A stretch of 64,000 nt of DNA. Source: Erwinia sp. JUb26 (lineage in GTDB: Bacteria; Pseudomonadota; Gammaproteobacteria; Enterobacterales; Enterobacteriaceae). The notes under the pieces were generated by a model that saw nothing but the letters and a program-made list of their open reading frames with translations, did not search any database and was not told the DNA's origin. The position numbers and the translations under genes are program-made. The stretch lies in assembly GCF_003751505.1 (NCBI RefSeq), contig NZ_RJVB01000006.1, positions 124,001 to 188,000 of the forward strand, written 5' to 3'. Shown here piece by piece: positions 51,542-64,000 of the stretch. How positions within the stretch are numbered: the stretch's first letter is position 1; each line of letters opens with the position of its first letter.

Positions 51542-52939
51542 TTAATACGCAGCTTTATTCACAAAACCTTTAAAGAAAGTCAGGAAAATAATTTTCAGGT
51601 CTAACCAAATACTCCAGCCACGGATATAGATCAGATCGAAATCAACTCGCTTCTGCATTTTATCCAACGTATCAGTTTCGCCACGGAAGCCATTAATCTG
51701 TGCAAGTCCTGTTATCCCCGGCTTAACTTTATGGCGTAGCATATAGCCTTCAATCAGCGAGCGATACTGTTCGTTGTGCGCAACAGCATGAGGACGAGGC
51801 CCTACTACTGACATTTGACCAAAAAGTACGTTGAAGAACTGCGGTAATTCATCCAGCGAGGTATTCCGTAAAAATTTACCCAACTTGGTAACACGAGGAT
51901 CGTTTTGCTTAGCCTGTGTAACCTTTGCGCCATTCTCCATCACGGACATAGTACGGAACTTCCAGACCATAATCGGTTTACCGTCCATACCATATCGGAT
52001 CTGACGGAATATAACGGGGCCTGGAGAACTCAGTTTCACAGCACAGGCAATGACAAGTAATGGAACGGAAATAAACAGCAGTATAATTGACGACACAATG
52101 ATATCTTCAAGGCGTTTGAATACCATGTTGATTCCATTAAGTGGTGTATCAAACAGTGGAACAACCGGTACACCATTAATCTCTTCAGTACGCGATTGAA
52201 GAATATTAAAGGTGAATACATCCGGTATCAGTAAAACAGAACAGGTCGTGTCCGTTAAGCGTTTAACAATATCCTTAATCTTGGACTCATCTTTCATGCT
52301 CATCGCGATGTAGATACGATCCAACTTACCTTCACGAGCATCTTCGATTAGTTTGTCAAAATCACCCGCGTAAGTAATGCCTGTCGTGGTTTCAATTGGT
52401 TGCTCATCATAAACCCCAACGACGACAAACCCCATCCACGGCTCGTCGAGGAAACTGCTGATCAAGTTGATACCCGCAGGCATATTTCCTACAAGTGCTA
52501 CTTTACGAGTGTTGTAACCCATTCTACGTAAAATTCCTGAACTTAATCGAATTCCCATTCTGCAGAAGAAGAAACCCGCGATCACGACCAAATACCATTG
52601 AATGAAAATATTAAAACTGAGGTCAAAATCACTTAATAACGAACTAAGGCCTAAAGTAAATAAAAGACTAAGAGTCCAATTTTTATAAATCAGTATAATT
52701 TCTACTGAGGACTTTACCCCTCTCCACGAACGATAGAAATCTGTCATCCCTCCTATCATTTGGAATACAACAAGTACCATAAGCGCTATCAATAAATGTT
52801 TATAGTCAAAAGAACGCCCGTTCACGAAAGAAACTACATATAAGCCAAGAAATATTATTGAGATATCTGAAAAACGCTGCACCATTGATATCAATGAAGC
52901 ATTCGCATTAGAACGTGTACGATGATGTAGAATTGTCAT
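51542..52939 (-). CDS. wcaJ: WcaJ, undecaprenyl-phosphate glucose-1-phosphate transferase
   Basis: A 465-residue initiating enzyme of Wzy-dependent polysaccharide synthesis; it places a hexose-1-P on undecaprenyl phosphate at the inner membrane. It aligns end to end with E. coli WcaJ (464): NASLISMVQRFSDI, FQMIGGMTDFYRSWRG, the Rossmann-like middle domain, and the catalytic C-terminal third with SSPGPVIFRQIRYGMDGKP, FRTMSV, SLDELPQF and GPRPHAVAHNEQYR. WcaJ uses UDP-glucose; the related AmsG uses UDP-galactose, so the sugar is likely but not certain to be glucose. It is the last gene of the operon and 189 bases after manB. Confidence 0.93.
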   Translation of the reverse strand: MTILHHRTRSNANASLISMVQRFSDISIIFLGLYVVSFVNGRSFDYKHLLIALMVLVVFQMIGGMTDFYRSWRGVKSSVEIILIYKNWTLSLLFTLGLSSLLSDFDLSFNIFIQWYLVVIAGFFFCRMGIRLSSGILRRMGYNTRKVALVGNMPAGINLISSFLDEPWMGFVVVGVYDEQPIETTTGITYAGDFDKLIEDAREGKLDRIYIAMSMKDESKIKDIVKRLTDTTCSVLLIPDVFTFNILQSRTEEINGVPVVPLFDTPLNGINMVFKRLEDIIVSSIILLFISVPLLVIACAVKLSSPGPVIFRQIRYGMDGKPIMVWKFRTMSVMENGAKVTQAKQNDPRVTKLGKFLRNTSLDELPQFFNVLFGQMSVVGPRPHAVAHNEQYRSLIEGYMLRHKVKPGITGLAQINGFRGETDTLDKMQKRVDFDLIYIRGWSIWLDLKIIFLTFFKGFVNKAAY

Positions 52940-53128: not shown

Positions 53129-54505
53129 TTAGGAACGAAGAATATTTAGAATTTCATTAGTTTTATTTTTCATTAGAACTGAATCGGACCTTGATTCGAC
53201 ATTCAAACGAACAACAGGCTCAGTATTGGAACTACGGAGATTGAAGCGCCAGTCTGCATACTCAACGCTGATCCCATCGGTGTAATCAACATTGATAGCA
53301 TCGCCCTGGTACTTTTCGAGTACGCGAGCGATCGCTTCTTTTGGAGCTTCTAATGAGCTATTGATTTCGCCGGATGCCGGGTAAGCCGCCATGCGGTCAC
53401 CAACCAGTTCACTAAGAGTTTTGCCTTTCACGCAAAGCAGTTCGGCAACCAGCAGCCATGGGATCATACCGCTGTCGCAGTAAGCAAAATCACGGAAGTA
53501 GTGATGCGCGCTCATTTCACCGCCGTAGACGGCATCTTCCAGACGCATACGCTCTTTAATAAACGCGTGGCCGGTTTTAGACATGACAGGTACACCTCCC
53601 GCTTTTTCTACGATGTCTACCGTGTTCCAGCTCAGGCGAGGATCGTGAATGATGCGCGATCCCGGGTTTTTCTCCAGGAATGCCGCGGCCAGCAGACCAA
53701 CGATATAGTAGCCTTCAATAAAGTTGCCCTGATTATCAAACAGGAAGCAGCGGTCGAAGTCACCGTCAAAGGCGATGCCCATATCAGCCTGATGCGCAAC
53801 AACGGCATCCGTCGTGTCCTGGCGGCACTCTGGCAGCAGTGGATTAGGAATACCGTTAGGGAAGTTACCGTCTGGAGTATGGTGAACCTTAATGAACTCG
53901 ACATTAACACCCGCCTGCTTAAAGCGAGCTTCCACTGCATCCACAACGTGGCCCGCAGCGCCATTACCTGAGTTCAGAACCAGCTTCAACGGGCGGTTGA
54001 AGTTGTTTAAATCAACGTAGCTAAGCAGTTTGTCTACGTACGCGTCCAGAATGGAAAGCTGCTTGTAAGAACCGCGTTTGCTTTCATCAACTGCAGGGAA
54101 GTCGTTAGCTTCGGCAAGTTTTTGAATGTCACGCAGGCCGGTATCACCGCTGATTGGCTTAGATGCTTCGCGTACCAGTTTCATGCCGTTATAGTCTAAC
54201 GGGTTATGGCTGGCGGTGACTTCAATGCCACCATCAACTTTCAGGTATGAGGTTGCGAAGTAGATCTCTTCGGTACCGGCCAGGCCGATATCGATGACGT
54301 CAGTCCCGGCATCCTGTAAGCCTTTGGCCAGGGCTAACTTAAGACCTTCACTGGTCAGGCGAACATCGCCGCCAAGGACCATTCGTTTTGGCTTCAGGTA
54401 TTCACCGTAGGCACGACCAATGCGGTAGGCAATATCTTCATTAAGCTCTACGCCTAATTTTCCGCGAATATCGTAAGCTTTAAAGCAGGTTAATTCACCA
54501 GGCAT
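53129..54505 (-). CDS. manB: Phosphomannomutase
   Basis: A 458-residue alpha-D-phosphohexomutase (CpsG/ManB type) that converts mannose-6-P to mannose-1-P. The phosphoserine loop [16 protein letters not shown] is near residue 100, the metal loop is [11 protein letters not shown], and the sugar-binding loop [10 protein letters not shown] follows; [14 protein letters not shown] binds phosphate. It pairs with manC upstream for GDP-mannose. Base composition is closer to the core genome than its neighbours, as is common for cps manBC pairs. Confidence 0.96.
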
Positions 54506-54520
54506 AGTATTTCCCTAAAT

Positions 54521-55933
54521 TTAGCAATAACCATAATGGTCTTTTAACCGAATAATATCGTCTTCACCGAGGTAAGAACCAGATGAAATCTCCAGTAGTT
54601 CAAGAGGAATTTTACCAGGGTTTTCAAGCATATGTACAGAGCCGATTGGAATGAAGGTTGACTGGTTTTCAGTTAACAGATAGGTTTTATCTTCAAGCGT
54701 TACCTCTGCTGTTCCTGACAGGACCACCCAATGTTCTGCACGGTGTAAATGCTTCTGCAAAGAGAACTTACCGCCAGGCTTCACCGTCACGCGATTAATT
54801 TGATAGCGTGGGGTGTCAACAACTTTATCCTGCCGACCCCATGGACGATAGGATTCACGATGTAATTTATACTCACGACGGTTATTCTTTTTCAGATACT
54901 CAACTACTCTTTTAACATCCTGAACCTGAGATTTATCAATAACTAATAAAGCATCTTTAGTATTAACGATAACCAGGTTCTCTACGCCAATTGCCGCAAC
55001 TAAGGTATCATCAGTATTGATGTAGCAATTGGAGGTATTATGTATGAAAACATCACCTGTTAATGCATTACCATTGCTGTCCTGCGCGTTAACTTCCCAG
55101 AGCGCTGACCATGAGCCAACATCATTCCATCCGGCATCCAATGGAATCACTACCGCATCATTTGTTTTTTCCATTACCGCATAGTCTACAGATTCATCAG
55201 GACACGTAGAAAATGCATCGCGGTTTACTCGAATAAAATCCTGCACAGCGTCAATTTTAACTTCGGCAATTGCATGCTGACAGGCTTCCAAAATATCTGG
55301 TCTGAAAACACTCAACTCCTGTAAATACCGCTTTGCACTGAATAAAAACATACCACTATTCCAGTAGTACTCACCGCTTTCCAGATACTGCTGCGCGGTT
55401 TTTATATCAGGTTTTTCTACAAAACGCTCAACGCCAAATGCAGTGTTACCAAATGAATCGCCACGTTGAATGTATCCGTAGCCCGTTTCAGGCCCTGTGG
55501 GTACGATACCGAAAGTTACAAGCTTCCCTTGCTCAGCAAGTGGGATAGCTGTATTAACTGCATGGTGAAAAGCATGAATATCTGCAATAAGATGATCAGC
55601 AGCAAGAACTAACAATAAAGGATCTTCACCATTCGCTGTTGCACTCAAAGCAGCCAGTGCTATTGCAGGCGCAGTATTACGCCCAACTGGCTCCAGAATT
55701 ATATTATTAGATAAGTGACCAATTTGACGTAATTGTTCTGCGGCAAGGAAACGATGTTGTTCATTGCAAATTAACATAGGTGAAAAAGTATCTAACCCAG
55801 TTAATCTGACAACTGTTTCCTGCAACATAGAGTTGTCGCCATTAAGCCGTAGAAACTGTTTAGGGTATAATTCTCGAGACATTGGCCATAATCTACTCCC
55901 TGTGCCACCCGCCATGATAACTGGAAGAATCAT
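54521..55933 (-). CDS. manC: Mannose-1-phosphate guanylyltransferase (with cupin domain)
   Basis: A 470-residue CpsB/ManC. The N-terminal nucleotidyltransferase (about 1-290) has [20 protein letters not shown] and the FVEKPD motif. The C-terminal cupin domain (about 350-465) has [14 protein letters not shown], as in bifunctional type II phosphomannose isomerase/GDP-mannose pyrophosphorylases. It makes GDP-mannose, a donor for the polymer encoded here. GDP-fucose genes (gmd, fcl) are not seen in the window. The ATG lies 65 bases after the pssE-like stop. Confidence 0.96.
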
Positions 55934-55998: not shown

Positions 55999-56493
55999 TT
56001 AGTTAGATATTTCAGCTTTAAGATAATTGGTTAATTTTTCCCTTTCTGGGTATTTCATTTCCAGAGAACCAGATTTAAATTCCTTTGCATTTCGTATGGA
56101 ATCGCAAAAATCATCATAATCATTCGCAACGAAAACGGTATCTAGTTCTGAAAACCTATTAGCAGAATCGATCTGATGGTCGTTCCTGTGCTCATTAAGA
56201 GAACTTAATCGTGGCAAGATAACAATTGGTTTTGCTAATTCCAAAGAAGAAATGATATTACCCATCCCTGCATGAGAGACTATCAATTCGGCTCTTTCAA
56301 AAATCGAGGAAAATTCCTGCACAGATATAAACCCAAGAACTTTAATATTCTCAGGAAGTGCCACATCAACAGAACTGCCAGATTGAATGATGATTTCTGT
56401 TTTATTAAAATCGATCTCATTTGACCATCTAATGATGAATTCCACTAATCTCTGAAAAGGCAACTGGGTGCCTACGCTGCAAAAAATCATCAA
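55999..56493 (-). CDS. PssE-like glycosyltransferase catalytic subunit
   Basis: A 164-residue protein that resembles the C-terminal (donor-binding) half of GT28/Alg13-type enzymes: IFCSVGTQLPFQRLVEF at the start, then VSHAGMGNIISSLELAKP, the UDP-sugar binding motif, and LPRLSSLNEHRNDHQ. Such half-size subunits (PssE, Cps14G, Alg13) act with a membrane partner (PssD, Cps14F, Alg14). The gene overlaps its partner by ATGA. Known pairs transfer glucuronic acid or galactose to a lipid-linked glucose; which sugar applies here is unknown. Confidence 0.85.
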   Translation of the reverse strand: MMIFCSVGTQLPFQRLVEFIIRWSNEIDFNKTEIIIQSGSSVDVALPENIKVLGFISVQEFSSIFERAELIVSHAGMGNIISSLELAKPIVILPRLSSLNEHRNDHQIDSANRFSELDTVFVANDYDDFCDSIRNAKEFKSGSLEMKYPEREKLTNYLKAEISN

Positions 56494-56936
56494 ATAACTC
56501 TCCCTTTGTACTGGATCTTGTTACCGTCAGCTAAATGGGGCCACTGTGTCAAAACCACGGAACAAAATCGAAGAGCCATTTTTCCAGATAAGGACAAACG
56601 TTCTGTATTCGCAATACTGTCTATCCAAATAGTTTTACCACCACGCAACTTAACAAAAAACAAAGCAACAATACCAGGCGCGGCTCCTGTTGAAATGGCA
56701 ATATCCGGTTTTTTTGCAAGTATATATTTTAAAATCGTAAAAGCACCGGAGACAGTCTTTATTATTTTGTCTTTATTGAAGTCTGGCAATCTATCTATGT
56801 TAATAGAATTAAAACTATCAACATTTGAACACGTACCAATCAAAGGATGAAATTCGTTAAAATCGAGTTCCTTCATAATCTTTGTCATTTGAACCCAATG
56901 CCCACCACTCGAGCATACAAATAAAACTTTTTTCAT
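56490..56936 (-). CDS. PssD/Alg14-like membrane subunit of a two-part glycosyltransferase
   Basis: A 148-residue protein of the Alg14 family. It has VLFVCSSGGHWVQMTKI, the typical GxGGH-type N-terminal loop, and a central hydrophobic stretch (GAFTILKYILAK, then IVALFFVKLRGGK). It recruits the PssE-like catalytic subunit to the membrane. ATG at 56934-56936 is chosen because GGAGGGAG precedes it and it gives the family N-terminus. The stop overlaps the pssE-like start. Confidence 0.84.
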   Translation of the reverse strand: MKKVLFVCSSGGHWVQMTKIMKELDFNEFHPLIGTCSNVDSFNSINIDRLPDFNKDKIIKTVSGAFTILKYILAKKPDIAISTGAAPGIVALFFVKLRGGKTIWIDSIANTERLSLSGKMALRFCSVVLTQWPHLADGNKIQYKGRVI

Positions 56937-56962
56937 ACTCCCTCCGCGCAAAAATGAAATCA

Positions 56963-57934
56963 CTAAATCATTTTTTCTCTAACTCTTTGTGCCTGATTAA
57001 ACCATCTCTCCGTTCGTGATTCTTTTAGAATACGAGTTTTATTCTCGAGATTCGCAATATCATTGAGTGCATTTACACACCCGCTTGATATAGATTCAGA
57101 GTCTAACGAGTCTACGAATATAGCCGCTTCACCGAACAAATTCTTGAGCGTCGTGGTATCTGACAATACCATTGGCTTTTCGGCACTAAGTGCTTCGTTT
57201 GAAACACTTAACTGAACATTGTCACGTGTAGTTAAACCAAGAATAACGCCACTTGACCAGAATAACTCATCAAATTTCTCTTTTGATAAATAGCCAGTGA
57301 ACTTAACATTAGCTGGAGCACCTTGTACAACACTTTTCTCAATCTTCCCTTCATACTTTCCAGTAATATATACTTCGACTTCAGGCATGAGCTTCGCAGC
57401 GTTTAACACTACATCTAAAGGTTCATCTATATCAAACGAGCAAGGAAATAGGACCGATTTTCCATTAACCTCAATGTCAACGCTTTTCTCATATGAAAAA
57501 GGCATATCTTCCAGAACACGAATTACATGTGAAGAGATTCCCTTGAGCAGCAGTTCGGAACGAACTTGTTCATTATGAACAATCAAAACATCAAGTTTAT
57601 TCAAAAATTTCTTTACGCCAATGATGTTAAACCACTTTGGTCTCATTGCACTATTATGGAAATCCCCAATTAGAACGACTTTCTTTTTTGACAGCATTTT
57701 ATACAAGGCGCCTATGAAGATCATAAATGTTGGCGGCAGTTGCATCCATAAATAGTCAGGTTTTTCTTTTCGAAGTGCCAGAATGGTTTGGTATATTTTA
57801 TAAATATAATCAAATGGTTTCAGGACTTTTCCTTTAAAATTCGAAGTTATGTATATATCCTTATAACCCCAGAACTCTTTCATTATATCAGCTCGCCTTT
57901 GGTAACGAACCCAAGCAATCATTATTGAAGACAT
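56963..57934 (-). CDS. GT-B (GT4-like) glycosyltransferase
   Basis: A 323-residue cytoplasmic transferase. It has an N-terminal acceptor half with YLWMQLPPTFMIFIGALYK and LIGDFHNSAMRPKW. The C-terminal donor half has VLFPCSFDIDEPLDVVL, then VKFTGYLSKEKFDELFWSS and LSVSNEALSAEKPMVLSD, where the Ser-Asn-Glu-Ala segment stands at the usual second Glu of the E-x7-E motif. It lies 26 bases before the pssD-like gene in an AT-rich operon. It probably adds the third sugar, perhaps mannose from the manBC pathway, but this is inference. Confidence 0.78.
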   Translation of the reverse strand: MSSIMIAWVRYQRRADIMKEFWGYKDIYITSNFKGKVLKPFDYIYKIYQTILALRKEKPDYLWMQLPPTFMIFIGALYKMLSKKKVVLIGDFHNSAMRPKWFNIIGVKKFLNKLDVLIVHNEQVRSELLLKGISSHVIRVLEDMPFSYEKSVDIEVNGKSVLFPCSFDIDEPLDVVLNAAKLMPEVEVYITGKYEGKIEKSVVQGAPANVKFTGYLSKEKFDELFWSSGVILGLTTRDNVQLSVSNEALSAEKPMVLSDTTTLKNLFGEAAIFVDSLDSESISSGCVNALNDIANLENKTRILKESRTERWFNQAQRVREKMI

Positions 57935-57945
57935 TTACACCTCAA

Positions 57946-58494
57946 TTATATTCCAAACCACACCGGAAATGCAGCTTTATAGACTATGTTATTGTTTCTC
58001 TTCTTAATGAACCTTGCAGGATTTCCACCCCAAACTTCATATTCTGGAATGCTCTTAGTTACAACGCTACCCGGATAAACTACCGCCCCTTTACCTATAA
58101 TCACACCAGGCATGATTAACACATTCGGAAACAACCATGCGTTGTCAAATATTTCCACACTTCGTGATACTAAACTTGCCATAGGATCATCAACATCATG
58201 ACCCATTGTATAAATTTTTACATCGTGAGAAATATTGACATTACTATGAATATATAATCCACCTCTATTATCTAAATAACATCCGTAGTTTATAGTAGTA
58301 TTACTGCCTACTTTCATTTTACCTACGTCAAACAACCTAACTTTTCTATGAATTGTAGAAGCACTACCGACATTTACTTTCAATAAAGACTTTAAAAATA
58401 ACCTACGTAGGCTAAAAAAAAATGAAAAGGAAATGATGGTGTTTGAGGAAGATATATATAGTTTTTTCAGGTTTAACTTAAACAATTTAATCAT
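57946..58494 (-). CDS. Hexapeptide-repeat acyltransferase (WcaF/NodL type)
   Basis: A 182-residue left-handed beta-helix O-acetyltransferase. Hexapeptide repeats run from about 50 to 160 (VGSNTTINYGCYLDNRGGLY, then NVLIMPGVIIGKGAVVYPG). The catalytic-type His lies in YTMGHDVDDP. The C-terminal GGNPARFIKKR cap is typical. It would acetylate a sugar of the repeat unit with acetyl-CoA. It overlaps the lyase stop by eight bases, so it is translationally coupled. Confidence 0.87.
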   Translation of the reverse strand: MIKLFKLNLKKLYISSSNTIISFSFFFSLRRLFLKSLLKVNVGSASTIHRKVRLFDVGKMKVGSNTTINYGCYLDNRGGLYIHSNVNISHDVKIYTMGHDVDDPMASLVSRSVEIFDNAWLFPNVLIMPGVIIGKGAVVYPGSVVTKSIPEYEVWGGNPARFIKKRNNNIVYKAAFPVWFGI

Positions 58495-59325
58495 CGCTGC
58501 ATCTCATTTCTGGTGAAATGTTTTTCGAAATCATTACATTTTTAAAATCAATATATTGATCAGTTCTGGGGGCAAAGGAAGAATTATTCCCTCCGAAAAA
58601 AGTAGAAAAAAGCAGCCCATTAATCAAAAGATTTTCATTATTCCTGAAAACAACGTTAGCTAATTCTGCAACTTTTTCACCTCCGATCCACAGCCGTATT
58701 TTTCCGTCTGTATGGTTCGGCGAATTTAATTGCACTAACATTGTTACTTTAGTCCACTGTCCTCGACTAAACGTCCATGTATTCTTAGCAAGGCCAGTTC
58801 CCCATTTTTTTGATGAGGGCAGATATGCATAGATCTGCCCTTTTCCATCTTTCGTCCAGAGAATGCGAACACTGAATCCATCTGAGCCGTTGGGTATTTT
58901 CCCCCCGGTATTCCCCTCGCCACCAAATAATCCCGGGAGTTTACCACCTTTCACAAAATCAAAATCGCTCGGAAATCTGACGTAGTATTGAACAATAGAG
59001 CAACTTTCCTTATATAACCCACCTGGCTTGTACCGGAAATTCATCCCTCCATATTGCAAAGAACGTTTTTGCATGGACATTGGATCATATGAACCAGCAG
59101 GGAATTTAACTCTAAAACTGTTCGTACCATCGCCTAACTCTCTGAAATTTCTGATCCCTTGGAAATTTTGAATTTTGGAACTGATAGGCCCTTCTCTCTC
59201 TAATGAGTTAATATTAACTTCGTCTGCTTTAACAGAGTTAACGGTTAGAAGAGAAAATACGGCGAAAAAAAAAATCTATTTTCAGACGTTATTCTTAAGC
59301 CAGCTAGTAAAATGTTCGATTGCAT
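58487..59325 (-). CDS. Secreted PL14-like polysaccharide lyase, split by a one-base frame change at an A10 run
   Basis: The catalytic part (first ATG at 59080, 197 residues) resembles PL14-type alginate/glucuronan lyases: FPSDFDFVKGGKLPGLFGG is the diagnostic segment. That frame continues open upstream with FAVFSLLTVNSVKADEVN, a clear signal-peptide core and cleavage site, but reaches stops just past ten T (minus strand; A at 59265-59274) without a start codon. One extra T (or two fewer) would join it to ATG 59323-59325, which has AAGG six bases upstream and encodes MQSNILLAGLRITSENR, a fitting N-region. As written, the full gene is out of frame: a sequencing error, a phase-variable switch, transcriptional slippage or a recent mutation. 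Lyases in such operons trim or release the polymer in the periplasm. Confidence 0.7.
59265..59274. repeat. A10 homopolymer run in the lyase signal-peptide region
   Basis: Ten consecutive A on the plus strand (T on the coding strand) at the point where the lyase start frame and catalytic frame part by one base. Runs of nine or more A/T are prone to replication and RNA polymerase slippage. Confidence 0.9.
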
Positions 59326-60424
59326 TCGTCACCTTAACCTTATTCATTTCAATATCTTTTTGAAGGTTGTTACGTAATACTTCCTTTGTTTCTCTGAATA
59401 GCGCTAAATTTTCTATAAAGCATTCTGGTTTCATTTCATTAATAAGAATATTACCATCTGAAATCATTCCATGAACCTTGATCAGTTTATTTTCTATTGC
59501 CACGGCAATCGTAGGAACACCAAGTGAAGCAGGTAAAAGAACCCCATGTGCTCTTGAGCTAATTATCACTTCACTATTGTTAATAAATTCATTCATGAAC
59601 TCTGGGATGGTGTGTAATTTCGGATCCCAAATCAACCATTCAAATCGTGAATTATCGGCTAATAGTTGAGCCTCTCGTTCTTTGTACAGCGAAACAAATC
59701 TAACTTTTTCACCTTTTTCAATAAGATACTCACCAAACTTAATCATCTCTGCAATGCAATTCTGCCCATTTGCATCGTGTGGCCAGTCGCGTAGGACAAG
59801 TGAAACATAACCGTCCTCACTATAGTAAGGTTTTGCAACTTCTTCTGGATACCAAATGTTGGATAAAAGACTTGGGTCAGTAAATTCTACTGCATTTTTA
59901 TAACCCAACATTTCACAAAATGCTTTACTTTTATCGTCACGAACGGAAATATAGTCACATTTATTAATAATATGTTTGGCTCGCTCGAAACTTTTTCCTT
60001 TATTATCGAATGGCCCCAAACCAATGCAGAAAGCACTCATTTTTTTATAGAAGAAAATTTTATCAATAGCCCCTTTGTAAGAGACATAAACACGTTCTAC
60101 GGCAGAAAATATATTTTCTTGCGCTTTTAACGCTTTTTTGAATTTTGCAAAGAAACCGATTTTTATTCCTGGAGGTGGATTGAATGAGAAAAACTGACCG
60201 CCTCCACCAAAAACGACGACTTCAGCTGAAATAGGTTTTTTAATATGAACCCAATCTACTTTAGGATTGAATTTTTTTGCTAACTCTGGATGTTCCACAC
60301 CAACTGAGATATGTTCATCTTTAACAACTTTCTTAACAATATTGATAACACTAATCATTAAAACATCGTCACCAATATTGCCAGGAGCATATGCCCCACG
60401 AATATATACTTTATTTTTTTTCAT
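59282..60424 (-). CDS. Polysaccharide pyruvyltransferase family protein
   Basis: A 380-residue member of the CsaB/WcaK/AmsJ pyruvyltransferase family. It begins KVYIRGAYAPGNIGDDVL and has the FGGGGQFFSF glycine loop and SSRAHGVLLPASLGVPTIAV near the C-terminus, both typical. It would add a pyruvate ketal from phosphoenolpyruvate to a sugar of the repeat unit, giving the polymer negative charge as in amylovoran, stewartan and colanic acid. The lyase start codon lies 44 bases inside its 3' end. It is seven bases after the wzx stop. Confidence 0.9.
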   Translation of the reverse strand: MKKNKVYIRGAYAPGNIGDDVLMISVINIVKKVVKDEHISVGVEHPELAKKFNPKVDWVHIKKPISAEVVVFGGGGQFFSFNPPPGIKIGFFAKFKKALKAQENIFSAVERVYVSYKGAIDKIFFYKKMSAFCIGLGPFDNKGKSFERAKHIINKCDYISVRDDKSKAFCEMLGYKNAVEFTDPSLLSNIWYPEEVAKPYYSEDGYVSLVLRDWPHDANGQNCIAEMIKFGEYLIEKGEKVRFVSLYKEREAQLLADNSRFEWLIWDPKLHTIPEFMNEFINNSEVIISSRAHGVLLPASLGVPTIAVAIENKLIKVHGMISDGNILINEMKPECFIENLALFRETKEVLRNNLQKDIEMNKVKVTNAIEHFTSWLKNNV

Positions 60425-60430
60425 TTTACC

Positions 60431-61879
60431 CTACTGGTTTGATTTGAAAAGCTTGAAAGAGAGGAACAAAGTTACAACCAACAAAATTGGAAGGCTGATT
60501 ATTCGAATAATTCCATTGTCAATATAAAGTCTGATCAGCAATGCGATTATTGGTGCGATTGATATTAACAAGACTTTAAAATTTAATATTAACTTATAAT
60601 CAATTATCTTCCTTTTTATAAAGTAAGGCGTTGTGACCAAAAAATGAAGTAGCTGAGAGAAAAATAAAGCACCAGTAATACCTATTGCTCCATATTTTTT
60701 TGAACACAAAGCAAAAACAACAAATATTGTTGCCCAAGAGATATTACTTATCACACTAAACCAGGATAAATTCAAGATAACTATTTTTCTTGCTATACCA
60801 CTTTTAAAGGACGTAAGGATCGCACCAAACAAAACAAAGGAAATACATAAACTAAATTGTATTGCGTTATCAAAATGGCCGTAGATTCTGATAAATACAT
60901 CAGAGAATAGAAGAATTGGTATCGTACATATAACTGTAAAGATCCAGCTTGAATAGAAGTTTATTTTTTCAAGTTGACTATTCTTTTCATTCTTTTTAGA
61001 TGCGAGTAATGGGATGAGCACAGTTCCAAGAACAACAGATGCTTGTGTAAATATTGCGCTCCACTGCATAGATGCCGAAAACATTGCCAACTGTTGTAAA
61101 CCATCAACCAGTGCTGATAATAACTTATTTGAGAACCATGTTACAGGGGCAACAATTAAGCCAGTTAGTAAGATAGGAAGACCAACATGGGTAATAACGC
61201 TCGTTTCTGTGAAGCAATTTTTAAATATTATCTTGACATTTTTTTCTTTAATGCATCTAAAGATAAATAAAACACTAACTATAACTGCGATTGCTTGTGA
61301 TGATATAAAACTATAAATTGCGCCATCGAAACCATAATCCTTCGTCATTACGAATGCTAAAGCAACAGTTACAATAGATATGATTGCATTGATTATAGCA
61401 TTTATCCTAAACTTCCCTAATCCAGAAAACACACCCTGAATCCATCCGAGCAGTACTGTTAGCACAATAATATAGACGGTGGTTTTAACGTACTGGGATA
61501 ATTCCTCATGGAGTAACAGATATTTAGCAAAACTACTGGCATAAATTGAGGAAAATACCACAATAACTAATGCAAAAAACAACGAAAAAAGCAGAGTAAT
61601 AGCTATACCCCTACTCACTTTTACTACATCCGTTTTAAGGAATTCTGCAATATGTTTTGACGTTGCCGTTGTGATAGATTGTGCGACTACGTTAGCCAGC
61701 ATAATTACCACACTTTGGATGATTGCAAATTTTCCAAAATTTTCGACACCAAGCAATCGCGAAATAATAATACCGACAACAACTAGCGAAACTTTGTTTG
61801 AAAATGTTGCTATCATGCTCCATGTCGAATCTTTTAATAACCGAGATATCAGAGACCCTTTTATTAAATTCATAATCAC
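60431..61879 (-). CDS. wzx: Exopolysaccharide flippase (Wzx-like)
   Basis: A 482-residue membrane protein with about fourteen hydrophobic segments and polysaccharide-exporter features: STWSMIATFSNKVSLVVVGI at the N-terminus, LGVENFGKFAIIQSVV, and FASSMQW-like ASMQWSAIFTQASVVLGT in the middle. It moves the lipid-linked repeat unit to the periplasmic face. Sequence is unlike the O-antigen Wzx at 4.8-6.1 kb, as expected for different substrates. AT-rich; located between wzy and the pyruvyltransferase gene. Confidence 0.9.
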   Translation of the reverse strand: MIMNLIKGSLISRLLKDSTWSMIATFSNKVSLVVVGIIISRLLGVENFGKFAIIQSVVIMLANVVAQSITTATSKHIAEFLKTDVVKVSRGIAITLLFSLFFALVIVVFSSIYASSFAKYLLLHEELSQYVKTTVYIIVLTVLLGWIQGVFSGLGKFRINAIINAIISIVTVALAFVMTKDYGFDGAIYSFISSQAIAVIVSVLFIFRCIKEKNVKIIFKNCFTETSVITHVGLPILLTGLIVAPVTWFSNKLLSALVDGLQQLAMFSASMQWSAIFTQASVVLGTVLIPLLASKKNEKNSQLEKINFYSSWIFTVICTIPILLFSDVFIRIYGHFDNAIQFSLCISFVLFGAILTSFKSGIARKIVILNLSWFSVISNISWATIFVVFALCSKKYGAIGITGALFFSQLLHFLVTTPYFIKRKIIDYKLILNFKVLLISIAPIIALLIRLYIDNGIIRIISLPILLVVTLFLSFKLFKSNQ

Positions 61880-61886
61880 ATATTCT

Positions 61887-63107
61887 CTAACTAATTATTT
61901 CAGAATTTTTTCTGTTTAATATTTGTATCATAGCCGAGCCAACTATTAACCCAAGAGAATATGGATGATAGGGCACTGCAGAAACGAAATACATAATCGT
62001 ACAAAATACAGCAAATGCTATCTTTGTTTTCTTATCCAGATTATTTACTACTGATTTAGTGAACACATAGATGAAAAATAGTCCGAACACACCGTATTTC
62101 ACATACATCGTTAAATACAGACTATCTACTGATACGTTTTCTGAGTCTAATCCACGATATGCAAACCACGGAATATCAAAATAAGTGCCTGCACCATAAC
62201 CGAACAAATAGTTAAAACCTGTCATATTGTTTATCAATGTAATGGCTGGTGAGAATCTGTTCGAGATTTGGAATAACAACACATCGAGTGATAGCCCGCT
62301 GGTTACACGACTGGCACCTACGTAGCTGCTTACTCCCAAGAAAAGCCCAACGACAATCAAAGAAGCAAAGGAATAGAAGAATATCTTTTTCAAATCTTTC
62401 GCATTAGAAATTATCACGCCAAAAAGAATAGCGAGGATCATAAATCTTGAGTTACCGACAAACACACAAACTATGGCGGCAAAAAAACAGATTCTAGCCC
62501 ATTTTGGTTGTTGCTCGCGTATAGTTCCCGATAATAAGTAATAAATCATATACAAAGCGGCTACATATGTTGAACCATCCAGATACCTGTATGCGTTATC
62601 TTCGTAGTATTCATCTTTGTATACTGAGAGTCCCAATTTTGGAGGTAATAAATGCACAAGGCTGAACAAAAACATAATCGTTAGAATTTGTAATATCATT
62701 CTCTTATTAGAAAAAAATGACTCTCTCATCACCGACATCAAAACCAATGCCGTGGTTATCATGATCAGAGGCCTTAAATCTTTTAATAAAAACTTATTGA
62801 GATGGTTCCCGAATATTAAACTCGCAATAATGTATAATATATAAATAAACAAACCAAAAATTACAACATAAGGAACCGCAGGTTTTAAACCTCCAATCCT
62901 CATTGATTTCAACACATAAACAAATAATACACCAAATAGATAAAAATCAAAAAAATACACCCCTTGCTTAGATATGAAATCCGCATAGGAGTTACCTGTG
63001 GGTACAATAGCAATTAACAGTACAAAAAATATTAACGATTTCTTTGCTGAAAAAAGCGAGTAGATACCAATAAACAAGGCAATTACAGATGATAATATAA
63101 ATAGCAT
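61887..63107 (-). CDS. wzy: Exopolysaccharide polymerase (Wzy-like)
   Basis: A 406-residue membrane protein with about eleven hydrophobic segments and a large central periplasmic loop (about residues 255-310: LSLDVLLFQISNRFSPAITL, then GYGAGTYFDIPWFAYRGLD), the common topology of O-antigen ligase/polymerase proteins. It joins repeat units in the periplasm. It is very AT-rich, with the conserved position between wzc and wzx. It starts 110 bases after wzc, downstream of an intra-operon terminator, so its expression depends on readthrough or a local promoter. Confidence 0.85.
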   Translation of the reverse strand: MLFILSSVIALFIGIYSLFSAKKSLIFFVLLIAIVPTGNSYADFISKQGVYFFDFYLFGVLFVYVLKSMRIGGLKPAVPYVVIFGLFIYILYIIASLIFGNHLNKFLLKDLRPLIMITTALVLMSVMRESFFSNKRMILQILTIMFLFSLVHLLPPKLGLSVYKDEYYEDNAYRYLDGSTYVAALYMIYYLLSGTIREQQPKWARICFFAAIVCVFVGNSRFMILAILFGVIISNAKDLKKIFFYSFASLIVVGLFLGVSSYVGASRVTSGLSLDVLLFQISNRFSPAITLINNMTGFNYLFGYGAGTYFDIPWFAYRGLDSENVSVDSLYLTMYVKYGVFGLFFIYVFTKSVVNNLDKKTKIAFAVFCTIMYFVSAVPYHPYSLGLIVGSAMIQILNRKNSEIIS

Positions 63108-63217: not shown

Positions 63218-64000
63218 TTAATCTTTGGTTGAATAGTCATATTCATAGTGATTGTAGCCGTAGCCATAGTAGCTACCTGCTTTTTTAACCACACCATTCA
63301 AAATGCATCCTTTAACTACAACGCCACCTTGTTCGAAGCGTCGATAGCTGACCTCTATTTCTTTAGGCGTATTTTCTTCAAATCTCGCAACAATAAGAGT
63401 AGTACCAGCATATCTTCCGATGGTAGCTGCATCAGTTACAGCCAAAATTGGCGGAGTATCAACAATAACAATATCGTAATTTTCTGAAGCAAACTTCAGG
63501 AGCGCTTCAAAACGAGATGTCATTAGTAGCTCTGCAGGATTTGGAGGGATTGCTCCACGGGTTATATAGTCAAAACCAGATGATTCAACTTTTCGTATAC
63601 CTTTTACAAAACTGTCTTCACCCGACAAAAGTTCTGATAATCCGAAATCATTCTTGTCATCGAACATTTTATGAGCATAACCTTTCCTCATATCAGCATC
63701 GATAAACAATACCTTCTTATCTGCTTGTGAAATCACTGATGCCAAGTTTGAACTGATAAATGTTTTACCGGCGTTTGGGCTAGCACCTGAAATCATTAAT
63801 ATATTATTTTTCGCACCAATCATCGCAAAATGCAGGCTTGTGCGAAGGCTACGGAGCGTTTCAATAACAATATCGGTTGGGTTATGGGCCGCCAACAATC
63901 CAAATTTATCTTTATTCTTAGAACTAAGTTTCTCGTTCTGTTTCTTAACTAACCAATCTGAAACCGGAACATTTGCATAAACGCTAATTCCCATTTCTTC
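63218..64000 (-). CDS. wzc: Wzc-like tyrosine autokinase, C-terminal part (continues outside window)
   Basis: The visible 260 codons are the cytoplasmic BY-kinase domain of a polysaccharide co-polymerase. Walker A is in ISGASPNAGKTFISSNLA, Walker A' in VLFIDADMRKG, and Walker B in YDIVIVDTPPIL. The C-terminus carries a tyrosine cluster, seven Tyr in SYYGYGYNHYEYDY, the autophosphorylation tail. Wzc controls chain length and export with Wza and is dephosphorylated by Wzb. The frame is open to the right edge (codons GAA GAA before the internal ATG 63994), so the membrane domain and probably wza-wzb lie beyond. Confidence 0.95.
   Translation of the reverse strand, partial: EEMGISVYANVPVSDWLVKKQNEKLSSKNKDKFGLLAAHNPTDIVIETLRSLRTSLHFAMIGAKNNILMISGASPNAGKTFISSNLASVISQADKKVLFIDADMRKGYAHKMFDDKNDFGLSELLSGEDSFVKGIRKVESSGFDYITRGAIPPNPAELLMTSRFEALLKFASENYDIVIVDTPPILAVTDAATIGRYAGTTLIVARFEENTPKEIEVSYRRFEQGGVVVKGCILNGVVKKAGSYYGYGYNHYEYDYSTKD

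Follow-up and report, generated by a model that had tools for sequence, protein, structure and literature searches.

A polysaccharide lyase gene out of register at a ten-base T run in a capsule-type locus of Erwinia sp. JUb26

A 64,000-nucleotide stretch of the Erwinia sp. JUb26 genome (contig NZ_RJVB01000006.1, positions 124,001 to 188,000), referred to here as the window, contains a polysaccharide lyase gene whose start codon and catalytic domain are in different reading frames, register being lost at a run of ten T residues in the coding strand. On balance we think it probable, if only just, that this is a hypermutable run caught off-frame in the assembly, and that the allele is leaky through slippage of RNA polymerase, as an accident of base composition rather than as a dedicated switch.

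The lyase gene and its start codon

The lyase gene and all of the neighbouring genes described below are on the minus strand. The predicted lyase start is an ATG at 59323..59325, so placed that the lyase gene overlaps the upstream pyruvyl transferase gene (59282..60424, PF04230) by 44 nt, and it is preceded by a ribosome-site-like AAGGTGA at 59329..59335. As written, the ATG frame consists of 26 codons followed by a TAA stop (59245..59325). The T10 run (A10 on the plus strand) lies at 59265..59274, starting at nucleotide 52 of the gene, which is codon 18, and it is here that register is lost between the start frame and the catalytic frame. The latter (58487..59275) encodes a signal-peptide core and a cleavage-site-like stretch, both recognised by eye, followed by the PL14 domain; it runs open from 59275 as far as the stop at 58487 and contains no second lesion. 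Its first ATG, GTG or TTG is found only at 59080, and upstream of the run it is blocked by TGA AAA TAG at 59276..59284, in which the TGA (59284-59282) is the stop codon of the pyruvyl transferase gene and the TAG is at 59278-59276. Because the run is out of register as assembled, most of the mRNA would give a 26-residue peptide. A U UUU UUU heptamer is in register with the start frame as written.

This anatomy agrees with an earlier note made from the DNA letters, which had reported an ATG at 59325 with a good ribosome site (found here as AAGGTGA, 59335-59329), two stops before the run with no catalytic-frame start until 59080, and a single out-of-register point in an otherwise undamaged gene. 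The same note had called the product PL14-like, and the piece encoded by the catalytic frame indeed matches PF21294 (Polysacc_lyase_14) with an E value of 2.2e-52 and 178.3 bits against a cut-off of 27, covering profile positions 5-215 of 215. The score is undiminished in comparison with the intact protein of G116, a genome of another genus in the same family, which reaches 175.3 bits.

In an alignment with PL14 members, a check that the earlier note had proposed, the K, S-x-R and Y-x-Y positions of the window lyase match those of the solved lyase 5gmt and are candidate catalytic residues; we take the aligned Lys, Ser/Arg and Tyr/Tyr to be catalytic as in AkAly30. A literature search on the role of these candidate residues returned nothing. 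Measured against 22 usable outgroups (19 of 64 loci from one search plus three others, with one of 23 rows, L067, left out because it had been read on the wrong strand), the window protein is closer than the G116 protein in 12 comparisons and less close in 8, with 2 ties. We reject a long-decayed pseudogene, as there is neither a second lesion nor excess divergence from the outgroups.

The position of the start codon is backed by relatives. In G116 the lyase gene, beginning with an ATG, overlaps the end of the pyruvyl transferase gene by 44 nt, as it does in the window, and the frame that follows is unbroken. The locus is also present in ten of 5,426 complete E. coli genomes, where the annotated lyase start is 44 nt inside the upstream gene in three loci and 35 nt inside it in seven; in all ten, a frame begun at the 44-nt position is open throughout. 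Because all ten E. coli loci encode one identical lyase protein we count them as one allele, and the start thus rests on two independent alleles, those of G116 and E. coli. AAGGT is also kept in the relatives, but the letters of both the ATG and AAGGT also code for the upstream protein, and their conservation is therefore not independent proof of the start. We reject a chance ATG, since the lyases of relatives start at or near the same point, and we consider the predicted start at 59325 to have good support in the two intact alleles that begin there. Annotators should be aware that this start sits 44 nt inside the upstream gene.

The capsule-type locus and its relatives

The setting is a Wzx/Wzy capsule-type or exopolysaccharide locus. 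The cluster begins with wza-wzb-wzc, identified by eye in L117; of these genes the window holds the C-terminal part of the Wzc-like kinase (63218..64000), which runs past the window edge and is whole in L117. There follow a Wzy-like polymerase (61887..63107, DUF6369 / Wzy_C), a Wzx-like flippase (60431..61879, PF01943), the polysaccharide pyruvyl transferase, the lyase, an intact hexapeptide acyltransferase (57946..58494) and a GT4-type glycosyltransferase (56963..57934). The next two genes encode the halves of a glycosyltransferase pair, an Alg14/PssD-like half (56490..56963), whose match to the PssD model is under its cut-off, and a PssE-like half (55999..56493), for which the PssE model and the glucuronosyltransferase model WelK are both under their cut-offs. 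The order is completed by a ManC-type mannose-1-phosphate guanylyltransferase (54521..55933) and a ManB-type phosphomannomutase (53129..54505), each named by eye from its translation and with a counterpart in G116, and by a WcaJ-type undecaprenyl-phosphate glucose phosphotransferase (51542..52939).

Along with the ugd gene of the E. coli locus described below, the sub-cut-off matches to PssD, PssE and WelK suggest a polymer containing glucuronic acid, which the lyase could cut. The lyase is probably exported and probably cuts the uronic-acid polymer of its own locus. The acyltransferase gene just downstream carries a T9 run near its 5' end (58414-58422), which is read in frame and could vary likewise. 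About 968 nt upstream of the wza start, on the minus strand of L117 and outside the window, is a GGTAGC...GGCGGTAG stretch that we take to resemble a JUMPstart/ops element, and on this basis the operon may be under RfaH control. At the T10 run itself no terminator-like site was found, and we also reject a promoter there, with four promoter-like matches against 7.3 expected.

Counterparts in G116 exist for all 11 of the window genes that were tested, with identities of 0.53 to 0.77, and eight of them are in the same order. In E. coli the flippase, pyruvyl transferase, lyase and acyltransferase genes of a capsule-type locus occur in the window order, with a similar overlap, in 10 of 10 loci. The locus of strain W409, the one viewed widely (for the other nine the view took in flanks of 1.5 kb), also has wzi, an export protein, a phosphatase, a kinase, wcaJ, genes of the ManC and RfbK types, and ugd, a layout that is presumably that of a group-1-type capsule. 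The E. coli lyase is 50% identical to the window piece, and differs from it in having an unbroken frame with no T run. The long T run is thus absent from both orthologous alleles, that of E. coli and that of G116.

No orthologue of the lyase was found in 36 other genomes of the window's genus (0/36). Among 394 genomes sampled from the order, 31 (our own included) have a PL14 match, as do 5 of 392 sampled from the family (own included), and in both samples only our own genome and G116 have a match near full length. The pyruvyl transferase is found at an E value of 1e-60 or better in 2 of the 392 family genomes, again our own and G116. One distant PL14 gene is present in G022, a genome of the window's genus; it lies at L107:11731-12783 and encodes 350 aa with a signal-peptide-like N-terminus, and none of the adjacent frames of at least 200 aa was recognised by eye as a polysaccharide synthesis gene. 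We reject a phage origin of the lyase, with no relative found in viral contigs by the pattern method, and likewise a plasmid origin, the one distant match being on an archaeal plasmid.

A second run-length difference is seen among the E. coli loci. The pyruvyl transferase gene has a G9 run in nine of the ten, and in strain EC554 (L181:1501-2644) the run is G10, the gene is out of frame and it is annotated as two pieces; the G run is absent from the pyruvyl transferase genes of the window and G116. It is suggestive that two different run-length frame losses are found in neighbouring genes of one capsule type, although both were seen only once and a fault in sequencing might account for either. 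Capsule-type loci that include a PL14 lyase of their own occur in the window genome, in one other genus and in some E. coli, and single-base runs put genes of such loci off-frame, namely the lyase in the window and the pyruvyl transferase in one E. coli strain.

Base composition and the rival explanations

The earlier note had seen in the T10 run the pattern of a contingency locus or of programmed transcriptional slippage. Two features do accord with this: both frames are intact on either side of the run, as in a contingency locus, and an A/T run of nine or more stands at the junction of two frames, as in programmed transcriptional slippage. The length of the run, moreover, is within the range known to promote slippage; what is not supported is an evolved contingency locus or a programmed site. 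When the nine cluster gene pieces (7,869 nt) were synonymously recoded in 2,000 draws from the codons of the cluster itself, a mean of 0.61 runs of 10 or more arose and 51% of draws had at least one, the observed number being one; for runs of 9 or more the mean was 1.9 against two observed. With 0.61 such runs expected from AT-rich composition, the run is unremarkable locally. Because it is also missing in both relatives, neither an evolved contingency locus nor a programmed site is supported. T10 is a product of AT-rich coding for a Phe-rich signal peptide, with no selection visible.

Within the genome as a whole, a pattern search identifies five A/T runs of 10 or more. Three of the other four (L097, L098 and L100) are directly 3' of a perfect hairpin and are terminator-like. 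The fourth, a ten-base run at L099:1501-1510 (G000:C3:428980-428989), has no preceding hairpin, and the only frame that spans it is one of 90 codons with no Pfam match. Since three of the runs are hairpin tails and L099 lacks a recognisable gene, the lyase T10 is the only run of this kind in an evident gene. The longest A/T run found in the genome, a T13 at G000:C6:33234-33246, follows a perfect 9-bp hairpin stem and is an intrinsic-terminator tail. There are in addition 51 exact nine-base runs, 30 of which were fetched; by a rough rule seven of the 30 are in a dominant open frame, and three of these (L118, L125 and L132) have the run at or inside a Pfam domain and read through it in frame, the run of the other four lying outside any matched domain.

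As a separate observation on the same assembly, a contig of 7129 bases (L110, G000:C16) has partial matches to plasmids that carry inovirus-type Gp2 genes and are mostly small; in the best eight of 55 records the plasmid matches are 44-60% covered and 84-87% identical, and seven are from Klebsiella.

Indel errors commonly fall in long single-base runs, and the ten-base run could have been miscounted in sequencing or assembly, in which case the gene would really be in frame and quite ordinary. The lack of other damage in the gene and an assembly in 23 contigs are in keeping with this. The three nine-base runs read in frame at or inside Pfam domains, the one in L118 being in a trehalose-phosphatase-like gene, nevertheless indicate that the assembly is sound at nine bases where this can be judged, and the T9 run of the neighbouring acyltransferase gene is likewise read in frame. 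The former count mildly against a general fault of this assembly at homopolymers; ten is longer than nine, and we regard a miscount as unlikely, if still a serious candidate. We are more doubtful of an early pseudogene, in which a single slip was fixed in the lineage and the gene has not yet decayed, perhaps as a longer polymer was favoured. One slip would suffice for such a loss, and of the 11 cluster genes compared with G116 it is the lyase that has diverged furthest (identity 0.53, pN 0.344); against this, there is no second lesion, no excess change relative to the outgroups and no loss of Pfam score. A very recent loss would leave no trace of this kind, and we hold an early pseudogene to be rather unlikely.

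That T10 has been retained to let a fixed proportion of transcripts yield lyase seems to us very unlikely. A U run works in this way in mxiE of Shigella, as passages in PMC1088944 and PMC4256274 describe, and T10 is, as noted, the only run of its length in an evident gene, with a minus-one heptamer offered by the start frame. Set against such a programmed function are the absence of the run from both orthologous alleles, its expectation from composition and the RNA structure, which is not robust: five stretches downstream of or across the run have z scores of -2.24, -0.72, -0.76, -1.03 and -1.23. With only one of five stretches at -2.24, we do not claim a stimulatory structure. A further reading is that the lyase is translated in its own frame from a rare AUU start at 59275, with nothing broken at all. 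Translation table 11 admits ATT as a start, and this codon begins 6 bases after the upstream TGA in the same frame. By eye, however, there is neither a good ribosome site at suitable spacing nor a charged N-region, and the relatives use an ATG inside the upstream gene, so that an AUU start is extremely unlikely.

We return to a hypermutable T10 caught off-frame as the preferred explanation. If the isolate carries the run at ten, as we infer, this part of the signal-peptide coding region would be a hypermutable, slippage-prone site. RNA polymerase slippage on U10 would give some in-frame lyase product, with a smaller contribution from minus-one ribosomal slippage at the start-frame U heptamer, and slippage during replication may change the frame again. 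Given the published slippage at runs of such length, the allele may be read as off, leaky and reversible. Reversibility, if real, would make the cells of a clone unlike one another in the chain length or release of their polymer. Quite improbably, T10 might serve as a set-point device, a constant minor share of transcripts giving exported lyase and thus a fixed ratio of synthesis to trimming in one operon, with replication slippage adding rare lyase-high variants; taken with G9/G10 in E. coli, the capsule type would then repeatedly gain run-length switches in decoration and trimming genes.

Comparison with known systems

The closest parallels to the proposed leakiness are mxiE of Shigella and tssM1 of Citrobacter, in which an A or U run (A11 in tssM1) stands between two frames of one protein, as it does here (passages in PMC4256274 and PMC1088944). 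For tssM1 a frameshifted product of about 20% is given in PMC4256274, where a figure of 20-30% slippage is cited for mxiE. In those genes slippage was measured, whereas for the window lyase it is inferred and the run is not conserved. Nine A or T in a row are avoided in many genomes, as stated in a passage of PMC1088944. A study of E. coli found that the insertion of single bases during transcription becomes exponentially more frequent as runs lengthen, the longest being 9 nt, though it also counted 921 deletions against 72 insertions and saw no reading frame restored (PMC5574713).

Homopolymer frameshifts in surface-polysaccharide genes are known events, and the allele is best explained as one of them. 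The surface-sugar (O-antigen) genes wbeL and manA of Vibrio cholerae vary at A8/A9 runs, with reversion described in a passage of PMC3441752 as confirmed for manA and not for wbeL, and kpsC of E. coli varies at an A7 run (in a passage of PMC13410964). These are surface-polysaccharide genes inactivated by a change in run length, as here (PMC3441752, PMC13410964); they differ in being synthesis genes in which variation has been seen, the window gene encoding a degrading enzyme and being known from one assembly. A literature search for a phase-variable or frameshifted polysaccharide lyase showed none among the titles listed.

As an enzyme, the window lyase has domain-wide sequence matches to AkAly30 (5gmt, E 9.2e-25) and to vAL-1 (3a0n, E 1.2e-8). 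The number EC 4.2.2.14 denotes glucuronan lyase. It is the number under which vAL-1 is listed in a passage of PMC8618178, which lists AkAly30 as an alginate lyase, EC 4.2.2.3. Unlike these two enzymes, the window lyase is encoded within the capsule locus of a bacterium, with a uronic-acid polymer as its putative substrate.

For the consequences of switching a comparison can be made with WceF of Pantoea stewartii. Mutants of WceF make larger stewartan, according to a passage in PMC7949094, and by analogy switching of the window lyase may alter polymer chain length or release. WceF differs from it in being a tailspike-like beta-helix, thought to be hydrolytic, and not a member of PL14; it is nonetheless exported, its gene belongs to an exopolysaccharide cluster, and it acts on the polymer made by that cluster, as we propose for the window lyase (PMC7949094).
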